From: Daucus carota subsp. sativus
Taxonomy: Eukaryota > Streptophyta > Magnoliopsida > Apiales > Apiaceae
DNA length: 64,000 nt
Direction of reading: 5' to 3'
Assembly (NCBI RefSeq): GCF_001625215.2
Contig: NC_030388.2
Span: 25,842,558 to 25,906,557, forward strand
Made by a program: the position numbers and the translations under genes. Of this stretch, positions 43,781 to 63,868 are shown piece after piece (positions within the stretch are counted from its first letter, which is position 1; every line of letters starts with the position of its first letter). The notes beneath the pieces are model-generated. The model ran no database searches. It was not told where the DNA came from and saw only the letters and a program-made list of their open reading frames with translations.

Positions 43781-44364
43781 ATTATAAGTAAGAAGTTATT
43801 TATCGGTGCAAAGTAAATTTTAATTTATATTTTTGGATAACTTCTTTTGGTATTTATAATTTATAGGATATATAATTATTAATATAAGTTATATATTATC
43901 TTTTGTAATGAACCTTTATATTTTTATAAAATTGAATTTGTAAAAATAAAATAAGTGACTAAAAAAGGTATGATGTTCAATTTATATAAATTTTTAATTT
44001 TTCACTAATAAATTATTTTTTTAATTTATAAATCAGGATTTTTAGTTCCAGCCAAAAAAAAACGTGTATAACTCATTTACGCAAACAGTACAAAATGTAG
44101 GCTTCGAAATTTGAAAACGACGGCCAAACGCCCCATAATTTATTCGACAAAAATGTTTTTATTATTGAAACTTCAGATAAATGTTTTTTCAAGATTATCG
44201 AAAGGGGTGTGCCGTGTGCTAACTGCTAAGCAGCCTGCCAAAAATCATCCCATAATACATCCACTGTGTATTATTAATACTGTTCCCCAGGACGCTGGAC
44301 TAGATCACTAGCCCCCTGATTTTTAAAATCAAAATTAGATACCGATTCCTCATAGTTTCAAAAA

Positions 44365-47300
44365 ATGAAGATCATGGTTGCAATCAAAAGAGTGGTTGAT
44401 TATGCTGTAAAGATTAGGGTGAAATCAGACAAGACAGGTGTAGAAACCAACAACGTTAAGATGTCAATGAACCCTTTTTGTGAGATTGCTTTAGAAGAAG
44501 CCCTTAAGATCAAAGAATCTGGTTTTGCCTCTGAGGTTGTTAGTGTTAGTATGGGTCCCACCCAGTGTGTTGATACTCTTAGGACAAGCCTTGCTATGGG
44601 TGCTGATAGGGCCATTCATGTTGATACTAAAGAGATGCTTTATCCACTTTCTGTTGCTAAGCTTTTGAAAGCTTTGGTTGATGTTGAGAAACCTGGGATT
44701 TTGATTCTTGGCAAGCAGGTTTGTGATTTGTATGTTGTTTTGGTGTAAAGATGATGTTTTTTGAATTGGGTTTTTCTTGGATTTTGATTTTGTTGAGTAC
44801 TGAATGAATTTGAGTGTTCTTGTTCATCAGAGGATAGGTTTGTGTATTGTTTGTGTGTAGGTCTATTAGTATGTGAAAATTGTTTTATTAATTACTTGGC
44901 ATTCATCTTGAGCTTGCGCATTGCCAATCTGAATCTCAAGTTATGTTTTCTCATTTAGAGATTTAAATTTATGGCATCACTTGGCTTAGATTGATTCAGA
45001 TATGTCTTGTTGTAATATATTGGGTCTTTGTGGTAATGTGGGTTCTTGACTTGATCTAATTATGCTTGTTAAATTTATTGGCTGATTGTTGCTCCAAGAT
45101 TATTTAGCGGTTCAATAACTGGATTTTGGTTTAGTAAGCTTGTAGTTAGTGTCCAATATCTAAAACTTTTTGCATAGGCAATTGATGATGACTGCAATCA
45201 AACGGGTCAAATGGTAGCAGGGCTTCTGAACTGGCCGCAAGGGACCTTTGCTTCTAAGGTTAGCTCCATTATGCACAACCCTGAGATATAAAGCTAATTT
45301 AAGAGTTTAGCCTGTTTATTAAACGTGGTACCATCATTTTATGGTTTTTGTAATCTTAAAATGGCCACTTTTGTCATGCCCATGTATTTTTTTATTTTTT
45401 TTGCATTTGTATGTGCTTGTTGTTGTTTGGTAGATAACTCAGTAATAAATATAATCCTCACTTCAATGAGTTGTCTAGGAGGCCATAAGTTTCTTTAAAA
45501 TGTAGAGGAACCTATATTTCATGTTAACATGTAAGGCCTTGTTAAACAGCCTATGTAGAGTGAAGCATGAGTTGCAATATGGATCTCTAAAGCCAATTCT
45601 CAGTAATATGTTTCCCACGAGTTCCTTAACTACAAGACGACCACTCCAATTGACCTAATACTATCTATGAACACTGAAATTTGTACAGATGTTTGACCAA
45701 GTATTGTTAATTAAATTTTTCTAAATTCTGATTCTTCTTATCATTGCTGCAATTTGGCCGTCAACTCCGTTTCATAATCCACCTTTATATGACCTGTTTA
45801 CCTGTAGAATCCGCTTCTTCTGTCAATTAAGTCATTGAAGTGGAAAGTCAAAGGGTATTTTTTTTTCTCACGGTCTATATTGACCAGTGACGTAGCTATG
45901 TAGGGGCCAAAGGGGGCCATGGTCACCCCCGGGGCCCGGAGGTCCTTGTCACATCAATACATTTTTTTTTTTTTATATGTATTTTAGTTTTTGGCCCCCC
46001 TCCCAACCGTTAAATTTATTACATATAGGATTTGGTTCACTTTATTCTTTATAATGTTGATAGTTTAATAGATGAATTTCGAGATTTTTATGTTAATTAC
46101 TTTATATTTTTATTTTTTATATCAAATATGTTTTAATATTATTTTAAATGGACCCCTGTTGAGTTTTACGTCTGGCTTCGTCCCTGATATTGACTCAGAT
46201 GTTATGATGTTGTGTCCCAATTCTATGAGCTCCCTCGTTGCTATTTACTAAAAAGAATATGCTTCACCATATGGATTATCAGCTGGTGCTTTTGCAGACT
46301 CCGATAACAGTCTCTGTTTCAGATTCTCTGCTCCTCATCAATATCCATTCCACTTATGCTGTCATAATATGATTCTGCCGAATTTCTTAATATCCAGTAT
46401 ATCTTTTTTTAAAGTTTGTGCTTCTTCAACTCAGGCACGCAGTCCATGTTTTATTGAGTAATAGTCAATTACAGTAGTCCAGAGACCTGCACATCCTACA
46501 CCCACTACGGTCCAACTCTCAACCTCTTGTTACCAAGAGAAGAGAGGTATCCACTTAGCTATGATGCTAGGGATGATTGCAGTCAACGTTTAGATTTGAA
46601 GTCAGAGATACTCATAGTTTTCTACTCCTTTTAGTATTAGTGAATGATGAAGCTCTACTATTTTCAAATGTGTGGCATTTTGTTTGCTAATCCACGCAAT
46701 ATATGTTTATGATCTGTTTATATTAGGAAATTAAGAGGTTAATGGGGTTTTGAAGTTGGCAGCTGATGCTTCCGAATTAATATCATAAGCTAATTGTATA
46801 TTAGAAATTATTATTGTTATTATTTATTATATTTCTTTAAAATAAAAGCTGGAATATATATATGGGCCATCGCTACATAAAAAACACCCTTCTATAAAGA
46901 GCACTATAGAATTTAAGCCTATAATTTCAATTACATTCTGGTTTTAAATTAGTTAAGCTTTTATTATGATTAATAATAGAATTTAACAACAAATTCGGAT
47001 TAAACGTAACTTGATTTTGTGTAAATTTTATTATTTTATTATTCAAAAATGTATATAAGATTCTGTCTTACATTCTATGCACTATTTTGTAACATGTGAT
47101 TTTCAAATTTTATATGGGACTCAGATATTAACTTCGATATGTTATGCTTATTTTTTGTCAAAAATATTGACTCTAACCTTGACGAATCATCTTTTATTGA
47201 AAAATAAAGTGTTAAGATAGTGTTTTTTATTGGTTCTCCGTGAAGTGCAGCCATATATATAATGATGTAGTTGACCAACCCTTATTTTTAGGTTGTGCTA

Positions 47301-51909: not shown

Positions 51910-52223
51910 AAGTTTTAGGGCTTAAATTTGAAATAACCATCCAAGTTTGCACAAATGTACACACCAGCCACCAAAGAAAAAAACTCGATAGCTTGGGCAT
52001 CCAGCTTCTGAATTTGTACAGTACGGCCATTTCCAGAGCTAATGACTCGGGTTCGTGAGAGAGTGATTTACACTCTCTGATTTCTGCAGGTGAATGGTGA
52101 AGAATTCAGGAGTAAACAGTGGTGAACATGACAACCATCAAGGTTTGTAACTTTTTCATTTAAGTTTCCAACGGTTATAAACAACAAGCACCACTCATTT
52201 CATTGCATTTTCTCCATTACACA

Positions 52224-52643
52224 ATGTCTTCCTGCAGTTCTTGTAGTTACTTCTCACCAGGTTTGTGTTCATGTGGTCTGAGTCCAGTGTTGAGGACTTC
52301 ATGGACTGATGCTAATCCAGGGCGTAGGTTCTGGGGTTGTAGCCAATACATGGTATGAAAACCAGCTTATGTATGCTTTAGATTTCATGCATTAGGCTTG
52401 TAACATTTTGGTTGTCAATTGCAGAGAAATCAAAGACGAGGTTGTAACTTCCACTTGTGGCATGACCCGGCTGTTGGAGATAGAGCAAAGAACATCATTC
52501 CTGGCTTACTCAGAAAGATTCAACGACTCGAAGAAGAAATGAAGAGAAACAGAAAGAAGGAGAAGATGCTTGTATTTTGTTTGATTACCACAGTTGTAAT
52601 CATATTTGTGCTTCTTGCAGTTTGTGTGTCCATGTTCATTTAA
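52224..52643 (+). CDS. Small GRF zinc-finger membrane protein carried by the MULE
   Basis: Two exons, 52224-52352 and 52425-52643, joined by GTATGA..TTGCAG without frame loss, give 115 aa. A GRF-type zinc finger spans residues 15-58: C15-x-C17, C39 and C50 with the family signature LRTSWTDANPGRRFWGCS and CNFHLWHDP. A basic/acidic coiled-coil-like stretch (about 68-90, LLRKIQRLEEEMKRNRKKEK) leads into a C-terminal hydrophobic segment (91-115), predicting a tail-anchored membrane protein. GRF fingers bind single-stranded DNA in topoisomerase 3 alpha, APEX2 and NEIL3; small plant GRF-coil-TM proteins of this layout have no established role. It lies just inside the left terminus, transcribed opposite to the transposase. 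It may be captured cargo or an accessory gene. Confidence 0.82.
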
Positions 52644-52942
52644 GGAAGCTGAAATGTGTGATTTCATTGTTGTTGTTTTAAGTTCCTTGTCATTCTGGTT
52701 TGTTTAATGTAATGAATTCATTCAGTTATCTATGTTTTGAGTTGATCATCTTTGTTGCTTTGTGAATCGACTTTGTAATGGTTCATGCAATACATAACCA
52801 ATTTAAGAAGCTAATTTTATTTAATTAAAAGATCTGCCAGTTACATGGCAGCATTCCATCAGACCAACAACCCAACCAACACAAGACAAACACACAATAA
52901 CAGAATCCAACTTAAAACAGAAATGAAGAAACATGACACAGA

Positions 52943-53427
52943 CTAAGCCCTCTTGTCTGCGTTCAAGAGGCCGCGGATGAAGCTGGGAGGAACCTCCAGG
53001 TCTTGAAGGCCACCATCTCCAGACAAGGCCCTGGTGGCAAGAGCATTTGCAGGGAGATACTGGGGATGTGGACCAAGTCACACATTTTCCAAGCCTCAGA
53101 CATGATCATCCTGATCATGCACACCAGCTGGTAAAGATCATCGTTTTCATCAGGATGAAGGACCTGATGGACAGCAACCTCACTCTCACATTCCACAGTC
53201 ACTGTCTTCCTCCCATTCTCCCAAGCCAGCTTTAGCCCATACCAAATCGACCACAGCTCTGCAGTGACCGGAACCGCCAAGCCGATCATGCTCTCACAGC
53301 CCCCCAACCACTTACCATCACTCCCTCTCATTATGCAGGCTATGGAGGCCCTCAAATGAGACCTATCAAACATGCCCTTCACGTTCACCTTCACCGAACC
53401 TACGACTGGCTTGCTCCATGTCGACAT
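52943..53427 (-). pseudogene. RNase H-like (RVT_3) gene with a frameshift, inside the MULE
   Basis: From ATG at 53427 the minus strand encodes MSTWSKPVVGSVKVNVKGMF, ASIACIMRGSDGKWLGG, then VPVTAELWSIWYGLKLAWEN and VTVECESEVAVHQVL. This is the plant RNase H-like domain seen at LINE C-termini and in many stand-alone plant genes, with Glu/Asp positions in AELW and ECES. Near 53060-53066 the frame shifts: the expected end (NALATRALSGDGGLQDLEVP, then FIRGLLNADKRA stop at 52943) continues one frame over. The first Asp of the usual V(K)xNxDG is Lys here, so catalysis is doubtful. Probably a captured and broken gene. It lies between the GRF gene and the transposase. Confidence 0.68.
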
Positions 53428-53890
53428 TTTTGCCTAATACTAGTGTATAAACTGAGATGTGCTTGAATGAAAAAACAAGCTGGAAGAGGGTTTGTTCTTA
53501 TAGCCAGAAATCTGTCAATGCATACAATTCCAAGGTATGAACCACCAATGGGCTGATGACCACTATCCTTAAAACATGTTCCCAGTTAACTATGGCTAAG
53601 TAAAAGGCTAAGTTCCAAGAACAGAAGACTAGACATGCATTGGTTGAACTGTCAGCTTTTGAAGTGAAAATAATGTTACACAATAAATGAGTAAATTTAA
53701 CTGAAACTATAAATTAACCACTACAGTAAGCTTGTAACCGTATATATTAGCATATCAAATAGTTCAGCAAAATACGGTGAGCATTTAGTCACCTTTAATT
53801 TAGAGTTAACATGTTACAAGCATTAAAATATTCCAAAAGAGCACTAATAAGACAAGCATAAGTTAGATAGAGATAGTGACATATAACATT

Positions 53891-56800
53891 CTAGGCCTTG
53901 GTCACCTTGTCAGCATCCACTTGTTCATTCCCTCCAGCCTTGCTCCCTTCACCTTCACTGCTATCCTGAACAGCACCCTCAGCACCAACATTCTTAGCAG
54001 CCATCTCTCTTGCCTTTGTTAGGGCACCTTGAGTAACAATGAAATTTCCACCTTTTGTGAATGAAGCTGATGAAATCTGGACACCCCCTACTACTGACTT
54101 CACTTGAGGCACCTCACAAGGCTTGGCAAGGCCATGTAGATTAGGCCCAAGGTAATTAGTTGGAGGAGTTTGAGCTGAAGATGTCCTACCACCACCACCT
54201 TTGCATGTTGTTCCTTTCTTTGTCTTCCCCTTGCCTCCCTTCAATATCAGCTTCTCTTTTTGTTTTCCACGTTCACAGCCAGGGTTCTCAAATGGTGGGG
54301 TAACATGATCAGTCCTTGAAGGCCAAGCTGGCCATTCAGTTTCAGGTGCCACAATCACCTCAGGCCAAGCAGTTTCAGCACCCACATTCACCCCAGTCTC
54401 ATGTGCCACCTGACTTCCTTGTGTAGCTGCCACTTGTTCAGGCACATCCATTTCAAGGATGCAGTCATGTTGGTCATCCCCCTCATCATCAGCAGCATTA
54501 CCATCTTCTTCATGTGTTGAGGCTGTAGCTCTCCTGCAGGTTCTTTTATTGTGTCCTGGCTTGCTACATCTTGAGCATCTCACTGTCAGTTGGCAACTCC
54601 TTAGCAAATTGGTGCTTCCCCCAATCTGTGCTTCTTCAGTGTCCTTCATGTCATTACCATCATGCCTCCTTTTTAGTTTAGGCCTTCCTGGTTGCTTCTG
54701 CACAAATGGTGGAGTGACCACATGGCCACTCTTTGCCCATTGTGCCTCCCCATTCATAGGGTAGACAATGCCTGAGTAGCACATCTTGTAGGTCCTAACA
54801 GAGTAGGCCACATCAACAAAATCAACAGGATCAAGACCAAGCCTATTCATAGCACAGATTGCATGATGACAGGGTATTCCAGTTAAATCCCACCTCCTAC
54901 ATCCACAAGTGCCTGTGTTGAGGTCCACAGAGAATTTGTGACCACTGACAGTGTTAATTTCAAACTGATTATATCCTGCATAAGCAGAGTAGCATCCACC
55001 ACTCCAATTCCTAAATTTGTTCAGTAGTTTGTTTGTCTTTGGAGTAATCTTTAATTTCCCCCAGTGCTCAGCTTCTTCCCTCTTAATCTGAATCCTCCTC
55101 ATCAGATACTCTCTAATCATCTCCAACATAACTAGAATCCCTTGCTGCCTAGCAAACACAATGGACCTGTTAAAGGCCTCACACATGTTGTTCAACAAAA
55201 TATCACATTTGTTGTCCAACTGAAAGTGTGACCTTGACCAGTGGTGTGCTGGAATAGCAGCCAACCAGTCATAAGCCTGAGGACTCTCTCTCTTTATCAT
55301 GTCCATATACTCTTCATACCTATCCACAGTTGTGGTTCTAGCACAACACCAGAGCTTGTCTTTAAGAGACCTTCCAGGAAATTTTTGTTTAAAATTGTTG
55401 TGTAAATGTCTCACACAGAATCTGTGCTCAGCAGCTGGGACCTCTTCTCCTACAACATTGATCAATCCTTTCTGCCTATCACTTATTAGAGTCCACCCTT
55501 GTCCACTACCCATGTCAAAATCCTCCTTAAACAACTTCATAAACCATCTCCAGGTGTCTGCTTTCTCAGCTTCAACTACAGCATAGGCAAGGGGGAACAT
55601 ACAGTTGTTTGGATCAACTGCAACTGCAGTTAAGATCTGGCCTTTGTACATGCTCTTAACATGAGTACCATCAAGACCAACAACTTTCCTACACCCTACT
55701 TTGTAACCATGTTTTAGGCCTCCAAAGCAGATGTAAATTCTTTTGAAAACACCAGGATGACCTATAAACAAAATGCAGAATCATAGTAATAAAACAAGAC
55801 AACCATATTGTAAATTCATACATAGGGAACATAGTGGAAACATACCTTGCTCAAACTCAAGCTCAACTGTTGAGTTTGGATTTCTGGCAAGCAGCTCAGT
55901 CCTATAATCCCATAGTTTAGAGTACTGCTCAGCATCTGATCCATGAATTATCTTCATTGCCTTCCTCTTTGCTCTCCTTAGAACATGTGGCTTGAAATCT
56001 ATGTGCAGATCTGTGATAGCCCTCTCCCTCATAGAATTTATTGGCCAGGTAGGATTGCTCCTGAACTCATTAAGATAGTGTTTTGCAAGGAAGCCAGAGT
56101 GAACCAAGGGCAAGCCCCTTTGCTCCCTAACACAGTTGTGTTCTACATTTAATTGATGGGTGGAAAACATATAGGGTTAGTAAAGAAGGGTTAACATGGT
56201 AAATAGCAAAACATAAATAAAAGGTTAAAGTTAATAGAAAACTGCAATGGTCCACATGTTTTATAATACCTGGACCCATCTGTTTTAGCTGGAATACTTT
56301 ATCAAAGTTCTGAGATGCATACATAAACCAGGGGCAAGGTGGTTTGCATGCTGCCCTCAACCTCTTCCTATCAGACAACACAAACCTCACCATCCTTCCT
56401 TCCTTGTAACTGTGTTTGGTGATTGCTTCCCTGCACTCATGGTGATCTTTGAAGGTCATTCCAACTTCCCATTGAGGGTCATCACAGTCTTTGTAGACAG
56501 GCCACTTGATCTTCTTCATCCCTGGAACTTCCTCTGCAAATATTTCTTCAAAAAAGATCTCCAAAGAGTCAGAATCTGAGGTATCAACAATGCCAGCTTC
56601 TGAATCAGATTTGTCCTCACTTATGTCATCTTCATTGATCAATCCAAGATGATTTTCAAGCTGACCAACCCACTCTGCAGCACAATCCACATTTTCAGCA
56701 AATAGGTGGTCATCAACCTCACCAAATGAGTACTCACTGTCGGAGAAGTGGTAGTCTTCGTCTAGCTCTTCAAGGTCAAGAAATTCATTTGTGTCAGCTA

Positions 56801-57437
56801 TGAACTCCTCAGGATGCACATTGTGGTAATGCTCAGCAGTAAGCTCCAACTCAGTATAGTGCTCCACATATATATCAATCCTATAGTTGTTCTCTTTTCC
56901 ATACCCAATCATCCTTACACAGTCAGTTTCATTCTGAAGTAGCTTCATACCAGCATCCATTGGGAGTGTGGGTACCTTGTAGTACATAGTTTTCAACCCA
57001 CTATACCCCAAGCCATCAACTTTCCCACGGATTTCATCATAACTTATATCATTAATACCCCAGAAATCATACACAGTAAGCTGTCCCCCTACGTACTCAG
57101 TGTGTGGCAACCACTTCATCATTCCTCCATGATACAATCTAACACTTAGCATATTATCATCATGACCTAGATTTTAGTAAATATGAGGCACATTAACACA
57201 TGTATGTCTAACATAATTCAACACCGTATGCCAACACAAGAACATTAATTAAATACTAAGCTTAAAATACTAGGTTCAAACATAAGTACATATATATTTC
57301 GACATTGTAATATCAGTCCTCAAATAAAATGGAATGCAGATGTGAAGATGTAACTCACCGTAAGGTGGAGAATCAGCTTGGTCCACAGGTCGAACAACCA
57401 TTGAAGGGCGAATAATCCTTCCATTCATCTCTTCCAT
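53891..57437 (-). CDS. MuDR-family MULE transposase
   Basis: Four exons on the minus strand: 57437-57359, 57166-56270, 56142-55846 and 55761-53891. They total 3144 nt, an intact 1047-aa frame. Order of parts: an N-terminal PB1-like region (SVRLYHGGMMKWLPHTEYVGGQL, about 30-120); an acidic linker; a MuDR-type DNA-binding region (VGMTFKDHHECREAITKHSY, CKPPCPWFMYAS); and a DDE domain with Asp455 (GLDGTH), Asp519 (ISDRQKG) and Glu619 (MCEAFN), plus CVRHLHNNFK at 540-548. Then come a SWIM zinc finger (Cys710, Cys712, Cys722, His724), a CX2CX4HX4C zinc knuckle (820-833) and a low-complexity tail. It would cut and paste the element at its 94-bp termini. The start (MEEMNGRII) lies about 230 bp inside the right terminus, as expected for a TIR-driven promoter. 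Confidence 0.9.
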
Positions 57438-57771
57438 TGCACTTACCAAGCTCGCTCCCTCTGTTTTAGCTCTCTGTTTGCTCTGTTAGACAAAATGTTC
57501 AGATCCACAATTGTGTTTCGAGGGCTCGAAAACTAAACTTTAAATCACAAAGCTATCTACAGTCTTACCACTGTACTTTGTTTTAGATCCTCGCTTCAAT
57601 CTTCTCAGTGAACCGCATCTGAGCTACACTCCCTTTCCAAATCGATGGTTCTGGCCAATGTGTTGGGTTTTCAGAAGTTGGATGCCCAAGCTATCGAGTT
57701 TTTTTCTTTGGTGGCTGGTGTGTACATTTGTGCAAACTTGGATGGTTATTTTAAATTTAAGCCAAGTTTTA

Positions 57772-58221
57772 CAGAGGTGTATTGGATTGGAATTTTAAAG
57801 TATTTTTTTGCATTTATGAAATCCGATGATATTCGATTGAGATTGTTTGAAATCTATTAAAATCTTGGGGTGTTCAATTGGGATATTAAATTATATATAC
57901 TACAAAATCCGGTGGTATTCGATTGGGATTTTAAATTATTCTTAAAATCTAATGGTATTCAATTGGGATTGTTTAAAATCCATTAAAATCTGATGGTATT
58001 CAAATACTGAAGGATTTTTTTGCATTTCATAAAATGATGGATTTTGTGGCATTTTTCAGTGTATTTTAAGTTTTTTGAAATCCCACCAAAATCAATGGGA
58101 TTTTGAAGAATTGTGCTTTGATATTTTATGAAAAATCCGCACAAAATCAAAATCACATACAATTCATTAAAATTCATAGACTAAAAACAATCTATTAAAA
58201 TCCCAATCAAATACACCCTCG
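57772..58221. mobile_element. Tourist-like MITE inside the MULE target duplication
   Basis: A 450-bp element with TTA duplications (57769-57771, 58222-58224). Ends CAGAGGTGTATTGGATTGG and, inverted, CGAGGGTGTATTTGATTGGG. Same family as 43225-43687, including the TTTAAAATCCAATTGGGAT-type internal repeats. It inserted after the MULE, since it interrupts the 9-bp duplication the MULE made. Confidence 0.88.
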
Positions 58222-59244: not shown

Positions 59245-60124
59245 TTTTTTTTTTTGAAAGGCTAAATTCATTAATATAAGAAAACTCCCTCGGGAGGGAG
59301 ACAAAAGAAACACCGGCCAAAGCCACCCATATCTCTAGCTTATATCATGAACGACCAAACTAGGCAAAACTATAGAAACTAGCCTAGCAGTACAATGGGA
59401 AACAAAACAACCAAAATAAACTACGCCGAAATGGGAAAAGCAGGAGAGATGCTCGCAGAAAAGCGACATGGATCATGCCTGCATGACCATGCCTCCCTCC
59501 TCCGCATCCAAGTCGTCTTCATAGACGAAATCATGGAGATCTTCCTCCTGGTGAGCTTGCGCTGGAGGGGCTAACTGGAAACCTGCATCACGCAAAAAGG
59601 TAGCAGCTGGACCTATCACCAGAGGACCATCCACTTCGTTGGCCATGATTGCTTCCAAATCTTCCATTTCAGCCTCGACCAACTCCACTTCGAGAAACTC
59701 AGGATCATGCGGACCAAGACCAATGTCCAGGTCCATAAGCTCTGCCGCGCGCCCTAGGGGTTCCGAGAAGAGAAACACCCTCCTAAACAGCTCAGATCCC
59801 AGAAGAGCTAGGTAGGTTGCGACCTTGTTGCGGCTAGCATACACAAAACGCACAGCACAGTTCCAAGTCTGATTGTTTTTCAGCACCAAGATCTGTTGCA
59901 CAATGCTGGAAATTTCAGTGGTGGCATTAGCAGCCGGGAATTTAATCGCCCCAAATGCCTCAATGTTGTCAGTTTCAACAATGACACGACGGGAGTCCCC
60001 TAGAAAGGCTCGGCGCATCCCACTGAAAATCGCCCACAGTTGGTTACCCAGAGGAGAGAGCCTTGGCATTGAACCCGCAGCACAAAAGATGAGTTCACCA
60101 TTAAACCTACGAAGAATCCATCCC
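59245..60124 (-). mobile_element. 5'-truncated LINE with RNase H domain
   Basis: An 11-bp target duplication AAAAATTATTT (59234-59244, 60125-60135) flanks about 880 bp that end, on the minus strand, in a poly-A tail (T-run at 59245-59255). The coding part begins mid-domain at GWILRRFNGELIFC, continues LGNQLWAIFSGMRRA, VIVETDNIEAFGA and VRFVYASRNKVATYLA (RNase H-like, RVT_3), then an acidic tail (LEVELVEAEMEDLEAIMANE) and stops at 59473. There is no native start codon; the sense frame is truncated at the insertion point. The open frame and exact duplication point to a fairly recent insertion. Confidence 0.85.
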
Positions 60125-60135
60125 AAAAATTATTT

Positions 60136-61213: not shown

Positions 61214-61396
61214 CATTCCAAAATGTTTTGCACGCACACTTTATAACCTAGGTGATCAACTTCACTTGTGTTCTTCTTTTGGAAAGTGCAGTGCTGATTT
61301 TGTGTCCTTCTGTGGCAAGAATCTGATCCATCTTCCATCTTTGTCTTGGGTAAGCTTAATTTGTAGTAGTGTTTTGTTGATTTTGTTTGTACAATA

Positions 61397-63868
61397 ATGG
61401 ATAAAATGTTTGCAAGATTTGAAGGTAGAAAAAGTTTGAAAAAAACCAAGAATGTTGATGTACATGATGATAAGGTTGAATGTGGTCATGATAGAGACAA
61501 TATTAAGTATGTTGAAGTTGTTGATAGTGATGATGAGGAGTTAGTTAGTGAAGAATTTGATGAAAGTGATAAAATGTATGATGATATAGGTAGTATGCAT
61601 GAAAGTAGTGGTAATTTGCATGATCATGGTGAGGATAATGTTGATGGAGATGACCCTATTATTATTCCCCACTTGAATCAACAATTTCCTAATTTACAAG
61701 CCGGGGAGAATATGTTTAGGGCGTATGCTTTAAAGAATGGTTTTGCAATTAAGATACAAAACACACAGAAGCGTGCCAAAGATAAATCCATATATGGTCG
61801 ATTGTATGTTTGTAATTTAGCGGGAGAAACTCGTGGGAAAAACCCCGTTGATGACGATGAAATTTTGATTGGTAGTCTTGGTAGTGTTAAGGGCAAACGG
61901 CGTAGAGATGTGCTTCCTAGGAGTGGTTGCAAAGTTAGAATGTACTTGGTTAATAAGAAAAAAACAAGTCATTGGGAGATAACCGGTTTGGAATTAGAAC
62001 ACAATCACCAAGTTGTTACCCCTTCTAAGATGAGTTTGATAAGACGGGAGAAACGTGTTAGCGCGGCACAAAAAAATTTGATCAAGAGCTTATATGTTTC
62101 GGGTGTCCAACCAAGACAACAAATGAATATATTTGGTAAAATGCACGGAGGAGCGGAACAAGTAGGTTTTAACAGCCAAAATTTAAGAAATGTCGTACGT
62201 GATTTTAGGAAGGACAACATGGGAGTTAATGATGCTCAAGCCGGTTTGGATTTGTTGTACCGTTTGCAAGAAGAGAGCGGCGGTAAGTTTTTCATCAAGA
62301 CTCTCCTCGATGACGAACAAAGATTGAAGTGTCTTGTATGGGTCGATCCCCGCTCTTTGATGGCCTACAAAAACTTCGGTGATGTGGTTGCGTTTGACAC
62401 TACATATCGAACTAATAGGTATGCTATGCCGTTTGTGCCTTTCACCGGAGTCAACCATCACTATCAATCAATACTTTTTGGTTTTGCACTCGTTCGGGAT
62501 GAATTGAAGACAACTTTTGAGTGGGTTTTGAGTACTTGGCTAGAAGCAATGGAAGGCAAAGAACCCTTGGTTATCATAACCGATCAAGATCAAGCCATGG
62601 CCGCGGCTATTGAATCACAACTTCCGAACACATCACATTTGTTATGCTCATGGCACATTAGCAACAAATTCCCCGAGAAACTTGCAACATATTATTCCAA
62701 GGAAGGGTTTAAATTCGATTTCAACAATTGCATATATCACTCTTTGACTGAAGTTGTGTTTGAAGATCGGTGGAATGCTTTGGTTTTGAAGTACAATTTG
62801 GAAGGCAATACATGGCTTCAAGGGTTATATGCTTTGAAGCATAAGTGGGTCGAGGCTTACACAAGAAACACTTTTTCTGCGGGTCAAAAGACCACATCAA
62901 GAAGTGAAGGAATGAATGCATATTTCGATGCCTATGTTGGTTCTTGCACCGGTTTGAAAGATTTTGTAGAGGGTGCACAAAAATCTTTGGAGAGGCAATT
63001 CATGCGTGAGAAAGACGAGGATTATGTGACGTTTCATAGAAGTCGTTGCATGCAAATGAAAACCGCTATGGAGCACCACGCAGCTTCCATTTATACGAAA
63101 GAAATGTTTCGAAGATTTCAGGAACAATTGGTTGAATCATCTAAGTACTTTGTGGAGAAAGATAGAGATCGGTCCTTGGAAGATGTTCAAGACACGTTCT
63201 ACAAATGTTATAGACCGTTGATGCGTGCTTCTCAGAGAAACACGTATCTTGTATCATTCAACAAGGTGTCATTATGGGGTTCATGCATTTGTAAAATGTA
63301 TGACAATGTTGGCATACCATGCCGTCACATTATTGTCGTCTTGACGAAGAGGTGTGTGGCGGAACTACCGGAACATTTTGTCAAACGGCGTTGGACAAGG
63401 GACGCCAATAGAGTTGATGGCAAGTTGCCATATCACTCGTCCGAATTTCAATCACAATCTCATGAAATGACTCCCACGGAAAGATTCAACCACATGACAT
63501 TACTTACCATGGCGTTTAGTCATAGTTGCATGGCATCGAAAGAGCGGTATGAGTATGCCGTTGGGGTTATTAATCGGGAAACAGAAATACTTGAGAGCAT
63601 GCCCGTTGACGGGGTCGAAAATGAAGGAGGTGAATTAAATCCAAAAACAACTCAAGAAGGTGGTGAGAAATTGCATGAGAGTATCCTTGACCCCTTGGTG
63701 TCGAAAACAAAGGGACGGAAAAAAGAGCACCGCTTTAAAAGCACCGTTGAGGAACTTACAAAAACAAAAAGAAAATGCCGATATTGCAATATGTTGGGAC
63801 ATGATGTTAGGACGTGTCCCAAAAAAAAAGAAGATGATTTAAGAAAAGCTCAAACTGGCCAATTGTAA
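61397..63868 (+). CDS. FAR1/FHY3-like MULE transposase
   Basis: An 823-aa single open frame. Residues 1-85 are acidic. A FAR1 zinc-finger DNA-binding domain follows (about 95-205: ENMFRAYALKNGFAIKIQ, SGCKVRMYLVNKK, LELEHNHQVV). The MULE DDE core has Asp334 (VVAFDTTYRTN), Asp396 (IITDQDQAM) and Glu504 (TSRSEGMN), with LLCSWHISNKFPEKL. A SWIM finger has Cys630, Cys632, Cys642 and His644. Near the C-terminus is a CX2CX4HX4C knuckle (Cys794, Cys797, His802, Cys807). Such proteins are either domesticated transcription factors or the transposases they came from. The intact DDE triad, knuckle and upstream hairpin array favour a transposon gene; no right terminus is in the window. A GTAAGC donor-like site at 61350 may give a 5' UTR intron. 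Confidence 0.85.
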   Translation: MDKMFARFEGRKSLKKTKNVDVHDDKVECGHDRDNIKYVEVVDSDDEELVSEEFDESDKMYDDIGSMHESSGNLHDHGEDNVDGDDPIIIPHLNQQFPNLQAGENMFRAYALKNGFAIKIQNTQKRAKDKSIYGRLYVCNLAGETRGKNPVDDDEILIGSLGSVKGKRRRDVLPRSGCKVRMYLVNKKKTSHWEITGLELEHNHQVVTPSKMSLIRREKRVSAAQKNLIKSLYVSGVQPRQQMNIFGKMHGGAEQVGFNSQNLRNVVRDFRKDNMGVNDAQAGLDLLYRLQEESGGKFFIKTLLDDEQRLKCLVWVDPRSLMAYKNFGDVVAFDTTYRTNRYAMPFVPFTGVNHHYQSILFGFALVRDELKTTFEWVLSTWLEAMEGKEPLVIITDQDQAMAAAIESQLPNTSHLLCSWHISNKFPEKLATYYSKEGFKFDFNNCIYHSLTEVVFEDRWNALVLKYNLEGNTWLQGLYALKHKWVEAYTRNTFSAGQKTTSRSEGMNAYFDAYVGSCTGLKDFVEGAQKSLERQFMREKDEDYVTFHRSRCMQMKTAMEHHAASIYTKEMFRRFQEQLVESSKYFVEKDRDRSLEDVQDTFYKCYRPLMRASQRNTYLVSFNKVSLWGSCICKMYDNVGIPCRHIIVVLTKRCVAELPEHFVKRRWTRDANRVDGKLPYHSSEFQSQSHEMTPTERFNHMTLLTMAFSHSCMASKERYEYAVGVINRETEILESMPVDGVENEGGELNPKTTQEGGEKLHESILDPLVSKTKGRKKEHRFKSTVEELTKTKRKCRYCNMLGHDVRTCPKKKEDDLRKAQTGQL

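Follow-up and report, generated by a model that had tools for sequence, protein, structure and literature searches.

The locus examined here raises the question of why a MULE should carry an intact, two-exon gene for a small GRF zinc-finger protein with a hydrophobic C-terminus, adjacent to an RNase H-like gene. The original prediction saw a contrast between the preserved GRF gene and a broken neighbour, and took it to suggest that the gene had either been captured very recently or been selected as an accessory factor. The comparisons presented below, made within one plant genome (441 Mb, 11 contigs), lead us to propose, with a probability of about 0.7, that the GRF gene would be a long-standing accessory gene of a MuDR-type MULE lineage, that is, a putative element-encoded helper. 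The DNA analysed, referred to as the window, is a stretch of 64,000 nucleotides (G000:C8:25842558-25906557).

Structure of the element

The MULE spans 5.8 kb of the window (51919-57763) and is bordered by inverted terminal arms of 94 bp each and by a 9-bp TSD, within the 9-11 bp required of MULEs (Table 1). Its TIR sequence matches 17 places in the genome. TSDs agreeing at 9 of 9 positions are legible at the element ends of L051 and L052, two copies whose TIRs are nearly identical to those of the window element (TTCTTTCAT and TATACTAAA), and of a third related copy (ATAATTAAA). The spliced transposase comprises 1,047 amino acids, read through three predicted GT..AG introns with exon borders predicted by eye and the start codon assumed. 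It retains D, D, E, SWIM and CCHC motifs, the catalytic D and E residues being those that we presume to be so, and matches the Pfam families PF10551 (3.3e-17), PF03108 (DBD_Tnp_Mut, 2.2e-9) and SWIM (3.5e-7). With long TIRs, a TSD, and a transposase that has DDE, DNA-binding and SWIM regions, the element has every MULE feature checked. The GRF gene begins about 210 bp inside the left TIR, on the strand opposite to the transposase gene and convergent with it; the RNase H-like gene (53433-52963) shares the strand of the transposase.

Table 1. Features of the GRF-carrying MULE, in window coordinates
Feature	Position	Strand	Remarks
Left TSD, AAGTTTTAG	51910..51918	.	8/9 vs right copy
Left TIR, begins GGCTTAAATTT	51919..52012	+	98% complementary to 57670-57763
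GRF exon 1: residues 1-43, start codon, Cys 15, 17 and 39	52224..52352	+	
GRF intron, phase 0, GTATGA...TTGCAG, 72 nt	52353..52424	+	kept in a relative
GRF exon 2: Cys50, charged coil 74-91, hydrophobic C-terminal tail 92-115, stop	52425..52643	+	
RNase H-like (RVT_3) gene	52963..53433	-	Pfam 4.8e-13; open relatives; alignment
MULE transposase gene, four predicted exons (57437-57359, 57166-56270, 56142-55846, 55761-53891)	53891..57437	-	
Right TIR	57670..57763	-	pairs with 51919-52012
Right TSD, AAGTTTTAC	57764..57772	.	8/9 vs left copy

L051 (G000:C3:14608850-14610850) and L052 (G000:C6:30337500-30339400) are 1.7-1.9 kb long and carry the window TIRs at 96-98%, with no transposase match. An ORF of L051 is a C-terminal protein-kinase fragment (Pfam PK_Tyr_Ser-Thr, 1.4e-7), and most of L051 recurs in L052 at 93-98%; both are Pack-MULEs of the window element's family. 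Elsewhere in the window, an 832-aa open frame at 61370-63868 (+), presumably FAR1-like, has a MULE transposase domain and is among the best 150 PF10551 places, and an ORF at 44356-44748 (+) looks like the beginning of a gene for an electron transfer flavoprotein beta-subunit.

The GRF protein

The coordinates, the two exons and the intact splice sites of the original prediction were borne out. The intron is further supported by a relative on C9, which has an intron at the same place with the same GT..AG ends (76 nt vs 72 nt in the window). The predicted product, of 115 amino acids, matches the Pfam family GRF (PF06839) with 28.8 bits (E 1.3e-6; curated cut-off 25.9). Residues C15, C17, G33, R34, F36, C39, C50 and W55 are invariant across 11 GRF proteins, namely that of the window and those of ten other loci of the same genome; they include the four cysteines predicted as zinc ligands as well as the GRxF motif, which together characterize a GRF zinc finger. 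A profile derived from the 11-protein alignment finds the solved GRF domains of NEIL3 (E 3.3e-14), ZCCHC4 (3.4e-4) and APE2 (6.2e-4). The predicted product is thus a GRF protein. NEIL3, APE2 and ZCCHC4 are repair or RNA-modifying enzymes, however, whereas in the window protein the finger makes up almost the entire soluble part and is followed by the hydrophobic tail. Small plant GRF proteins are commonly annotated as "uncharacterized protein At4g04775-like".

The charged coil (residues 74-91) and the hydrophobic tail (about 92-115) were likewise found as predicted; the tail has a mean hydropathy of 3.2 over 17 residues, and by hydropathy alone it is the hydrophobic stretch at the very C-terminus that marks a tail-anchored protein. 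A 17-residue mean of at least 2.3 within the last 45 residues was reached by 16 of 26 GRF proteins but by only 3 of 106 controls, for which we took further ORFs of 80-200 aa from the 20 best GRF loci described below; a hydrophobic tail arising by chance is thereby ruled out. The alignment of 26 proteins omits L038 (stop codon), L039, L049 (= L019), L027 and L029; loci L001-L020 are identical to L031-L050. The tail is not universal, since L037, L040, L048 and L025 finish in an acidic stretch; in L023 and L024 a hydrophobic stretch (2.4-2.6) at positions 97-113 of 170 is followed by a further extension. Judging from hydropathy, the tail is very probably inserted into a membrane, and by analogy with other GRF proteins the finger probably binds single-stranded nucleic acid.

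The RNase H-like neighbour

The description of the RNase H-like gene as broken applies to the window copy, which is frame-shifted near the C-terminus; the frame is open in all seven other fetched loci that have a relative of the gene (L033, L034, L036, L037, L041, L045 and L046). The contrast between a preserved GRF gene and a broken neighbour is therefore not supported, since the latter is conserved in relatives. RVT_3 matches of 2.3e-18, 1.5e-9, 3.1e-9 and 4.4e-16 were obtained for four relatives. In the aligned proteins, the expected VDG reads VKG or CKG, K17 replacing the first D in six of six sequences, and A replaces the last D in five of the six, which are the five whose frame reaches that position. 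We take these columns to be catalytic D-E-D-D positions of RNase H. On this reading, the set of residues required for catalysis is incomplete in the RNase H-like protein, which looks like a conserved, non-catalytic RNase H fold. A search of solved structures gave no match to the RNase H-like protein by sequence and, by profile, two weak unrelated hits. Outside the MULE, the window contains a further ORF with an RVT_3 domain (59473-60129, minus strand, 218 aa, 1.6e-12), which continues into an acidic tail.

Closest relatives of the element

The DNA of the GRF gene matches seven places in the genome, namely the window, C9:23176930, C7:6732499, C2:22134471, C5:28972642, C1:7481024 and C6:7643504. 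All seven adjoin the transposase or the TIRs of the window element's family, and none is located elsewhere. By transposase DNA, the relatives on C5 and C1 are 79%, that on C2 78% and that on C9 74% alike; these elements, which account for four of the six other GRF places, have the GRF, RNase H-like and transposase genes in the window's order and orientation, as judged by coordinates. RNase H-like DNA is matched at the same four places and on C7, where the GRF and RNase H-like DNA are kept together with one TIR match. The place on C6 is an element of 0.7 kb in which two TIR matches flank the GRF stretch; in this miniature element (G000:C6:7643201-7643933), the GRF sequence is the sole recognised content. 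The C9 element, both ends of which were read, is about 79% identical to the window there, and its GRF frame carries one premature stop. For the GRF gene, the DNA search thus did not turn up the near-identical host counterpart that the cargo of a Pack-MULE would be expected to have.

Whether the GRF gene is always present in other copies was a check proposed with the original prediction. It is present with the four closest transposases (74-79% alike), but not throughout: 26 places match the window transposase DNA, and among the matches listed by the GRF family search or by the search with the DNA of the GRF gene, one lies within 12 kb in nine of these places and none within that distance in 17. 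The five best of these places (window, C5, C1, C2 and C9) all have the GRF match, as opposed to 4 of the remaining 21. Several of the 17 places are fragments under 250 bp, and the GRF family search reads exon by exon, so that a finger interrupted by an intron, like that of the window gene, escapes it. The 17 places may lack a GRF gene, or hold one with an intron or one that ranks below the best-scoring matches listed; some members of the lineage may well have lost the gene or be without it.

Genome-wide association of GRF genes with MULE transposases

Scoring of the best 150 of 253 candidates in the GRF family search yielded at least 114 matches, a lower bound because the two-exon gene of the window itself is not among them. 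The 20 best of the 114 were read at 10 kb each; the other 94 are known by position, complemented by ten 3.1-kb stretches (L021-L030) and one of 0.7 kb (L053). A MULE transposase or a remnant of one is present in 17 of the 20 best loci and is always convergent with the GRF gene. Fourteen of them match the window transposase, with identities of 23-72%, and in all 14 the transposase is located downstream of the GRF gene in convergent orientation; L035, L042 and L050 contain ORFs matching transposase regions of other elements, which are convergent, too. Thirteen other transposases differ from that of the window at 48-62% of residues. The RNase H-like gene occurs in seven of the 20 loci, invariably between GRF and transposase. 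No transposase match was found in the remaining three of the 20, L044, L039 and L049. For L044, the only marks of an element are its TIRs and a perfect 10-bp TSD, L039 is presumably a host APE2 gene, and L049 encodes a different type of GRF protein beside a plant mobile domain ORF (PF10536, 2.8e-39).

Inverted arms are present on both sides of the GRF gene in 12 of the 20 best loci, and TSDs of 9-11 bp were recognised for seven (perfect in L032, L044, L048 and L050; with one mismatch in L031, L037 and L047). A TSD was sought and not found for L035, L038 and L042; L040 and L043 run to the edge of the stretch read. The predicted genes are thus arranged in the order GRF gene and, on the opposite strand, transposase gene, with or without an RNase H-like gene in between on the strand of the transposase, in many divergent elements.

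Approached from the transposase side, 25 of the best 150 PF03108 places (of 367 candidates) have a GRF match within 12 kb, and 125 have none. When the GRF positions were rotated along the chromosomes, a control which assumed the length of C1 and ignored the kinship of copies within one family, the mean was 0.88 and the maximum 5 in 1000 trials, vs the 25 observed. The 25 pairs comprise 13 convergent, 11 same-strand and one divergent arrangement. In the convergent pairs, which include widely different transposases, the GRF match is located 2.8-5.1 kb downstream. The 11 same-strand pairs score nearly equal and probably represent one amplified family; L053, the one member read, encodes a GRF protein without a tail. 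Within 15 kb of the best 150 PF10551 places (of 813 candidates), there was not a single GRF match where chance would give about 1.2, so that a link of GRF genes to MULEs in general is not supported. The window element itself scores below these 150 places, and the link is therefore probably to one kind of MULE.

A second type of GRF gene forms 11 tandem pairs 539-567 bp apart, e.g. C5:26897005/26897547. No hydrophobic tail was found in L027, a member of such a pair, nor in L019/L049, a single gene of the same type; L029 has a stop.

Selection on the GRF gene

Comparison of the window gene with its C9 relative gave dS 0.32, dN 0.13 and a ratio of 0.40 for the whole gene (Fisher p 0.003). For finger plus linker (residues 15-73, stop codon omitted), the values were dS 0.27 and dN 0.015 (dN/dS about 0.06), and for the tail dS 0.42 and dN 0.38, the hydropathies of the two tails being 3.2 and 3.0. 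The finger hence appears frozen, and the tail, which changes yet stays hydrophobic, keeps only its character. Eighteen GRF pairs elsewhere, which share members and so are not independent, provided 11 finite dN/dS values (0.07, 0.16, 0.16, 0.18, 0.19, 0.23, 0.27, 0.60, 0.61, 0.83 and 0.83), seven of them in the range of 0.07-0.27 and four at 0.60-0.83; four of the other pairs are without synonymous change and three are saturated. Both values of 0.83 involve L035 (= L005), an internally deleted element. Decay of the finger was observed in deleted elements: a zinc-binding Cys is changed to Y in L042, the nearly invariant Trp is gone in L035, and L038 has a stop, which fits a GRF gene selected together with the transposase. 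In the deleted elements L044 and L050, the GRF gene looks whole.

The substitution pattern demonstrates purifying selection on the predicted finger and retention of hydrophobicity in the fast-changing tail. Of the two explanations offered by the original prediction, position and dN/dS support the accessory factor under selection, and we regard it as highly probable that the GRF gene is a conserved accessory gene of this kind.

Co-inheritance and exchange of the genes

GRF and transposase distances are correlated over the 14 loci with more than 200 transposase columns (Mantel r 0.54, p 0.005); after removal of near-duplicates, r was 0.36 (p 0.09, 9 loci). L040 and L048, L045 and L046, and L031 and L032 are paired in both the GRF and the transposase tree, most other forks being open; the pairing of L031 with L032 may be false, as both are long branches in the GRF tree. 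The transposase tree, which omits L037 (too short) and includes a FAR-like outgroup, groups the window with L031 and L032, but the GRF tree does not. In L037 (G000:C6:29319300-29329299), the GRF protein is 88% identical to that of L040, and the transposase, for the catalytic part of which no match was found, is nearest to that of the window; this mismatch in kinship suggests that the gene moved between elements at least once. The RNase H-like proteins of the window and L033 are 68% identical and their transposases about 40%. The patterns of L037 and L033 indicate that modules were exchanged between MULE families, or that the small genes evolve more slowly.

Comparison with known accessory genes of MULEs

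In maize, mudrB is situated between the far TIR and the transposase gene, with which it is convergent. It is described as transcribed opposite to the MuDR transposase gene (PMC9168764) and as restricted to Zea (PMC2725143); its product MURB is reported as needed for insertion (PMC9168764), and its function is called undetermined (PMC2725143). The GRF gene resembles mudrB in being convergent with the transposase gene, in the window as in 14 of 14 fetched loci with transposase matches. This likeness is one of position. A three-gene layout like that of GRF, RNase H-like and transposase genes is found in the barley element Abermu, where ORF1 (transposase) and ORF2 are on the same strand and ORFR is on the opposite strand, with Ka/Ks below 1 for all three; in type II elements ORFR is located between ORF1 and the 3' TIR, and type I adds ORF2 as a third gene (PMC9168764). 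Here, too, the likeness is one of layout. The ORFR of barley and other grasses has no known function according to the consulted sections of that paper, in which no domain is given for ORFR or ORF2, and the term "GRF" is absent from the main text (PMC9168764).

The VANDAL MULEs of Arabidopsis, with VANB and VANC, also possess non-transposase genes. VANC acts for the element as an anti-silencing protein; it contains the domains DUF1985 and DUF287 and recognises motifs in the DNA of the element, to which it binds (PMC5735166). The GRF protein differs in that it has neither of these domains, GRF being its sole Pfam match. For aphids, elements with RING and C2H2 zinc finger ORFs are mentioned by a survey on how MULEs evolved; the term "GRF" does not occur in the part consulted (PMC6446971). 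Among titles and abstract beginnings of the open-licence PMC literature, no paper was found on a GRF protein in MULEs or on a link between At4g04775-like proteins and MULEs, in agreement with the earlier statement that a tail-anchored GRF protein in a transposon has no described role. By position and selection, the GRF gene looks like an accessory gene of the mudrB/ORFR type.

Possible role of the GRF protein

From its position, the GRF gene would have its transcription start at the TIR on the side away from the transposase and run convergent with the latter; in most elements examined it would give a protein in which a charged coil and a C-terminal hydrophobic tail follow the GRF finger with its four cysteines. 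GRF proteins of known structure suggest that the finger would grip single-stranded DNA or RNA; the tail would be expected to direct post-translational insertion into the ER or the nuclear envelope, the finger then facing the cytosol or the nucleus. The protein might then aid the mobility of its own element by holding a single-stranded intermediate or transcript at the membrane, which is the least certain of these steps, and the apparently non-catalytic RNase H-like protein could perhaps be a partner in that helper role. That the GRF protein acts in excision or insertion rather than in counter-silencing is a tentative suggestion, which we would not consider probable as it stands.

A counter-silencing factor, which as a membrane-anchored binder of single strands would target RNA of the element or siRNA precursors at the nuclear envelope or the ER and not chromatin, is somewhat unlikely. 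VANC sets a precedent for anti-silencing by a non-transposase protein of a plant MULE (PMC5735166), and a fast-changing N-terminus and tail around a frozen finger would suit a role in conflict; a related GRF finger is found in the rRNA methyltransferase ZCCHC4. However, the GRF protein has no DUF1985 or DUF287 match, and the binding of motifs in element DNA by VANC would be hard to copy with a membrane tail.

It is improbable that the GRF gene is passenger cargo, i.e. an old captured host gene that hitch-hikes and is open only because the elements are young. MULEs do capture genes, as is illustrated by the kinase fragment of L051, an element shared for the most part by L052, and the stop in one relative as well as the lack of a listed GRF match at 17 of the 26 places matching transposase DNA would agree with this reading; yet gene order and orientation are constant across 13 loci whose transposases are 48-62% different from that of the window, dN/dS is 0.07-0.27 in 7 of 11 finite pairs and about 0.06 for the finger, and the DNA search finds no copy outside the window element's family. 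We hold a regulatory role to be equally improbable, in which the membrane-anchored GRF protein would keep the transposase or its transcript outside the nucleus and so limit copy number. As might be expected of a trans-acting repressor, the GRF frame persists in L035, L042, L044 and L050, where most of the transposase is gone, but the decay seen in deleted elements (L042, L035 and L038), with only L044 and L050 looking whole, speaks for joint selection of the gene and the transposase. A very recent capture of a host gene, to which the open frame and intact splice sites of the window gene had lent some appeal, is rejected as scarcely credible, because all seven DNA matches lie within the family of the window element, adjoining its transposase or TIRs, because the intron is shared with the C9 relative, which is 79% alike at its ends, and because GRF genes recur in distantly related MULEs; the finding which would have favoured simple capture, namely a single copy with a near-identical host gene elsewhere, was not made, none of the seven matches lying outside the element family.

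The GRF gene as a long-standing, element-encoded helper of a MuDR-type lineage thus remains our preferred reading. An extension of it, which we consider doubtful, is that this lineage encodes a two-protein accessory system, composed of a tail-anchored, single-strand-binding GRF protein and a dead RNase H fold, that would shift some of the cycle of transposition, or of the evasion of silencing, to the membrane of the nuclear envelope or the ER. If true, such a two-protein membrane system would provide a functional answer for the long-unsolved mudrB/ORFR-type genes of plant Mutator elements. The gene in the mudrB/ORFR position has here a recognisable finger, a predicted membrane tail and a frequent partner gene, by which the question of function becomes testable. 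The term "GRF zinc finger" occurs in several crop trait-mapping papers, and some of the small plant genes of that name may be transposon genes.
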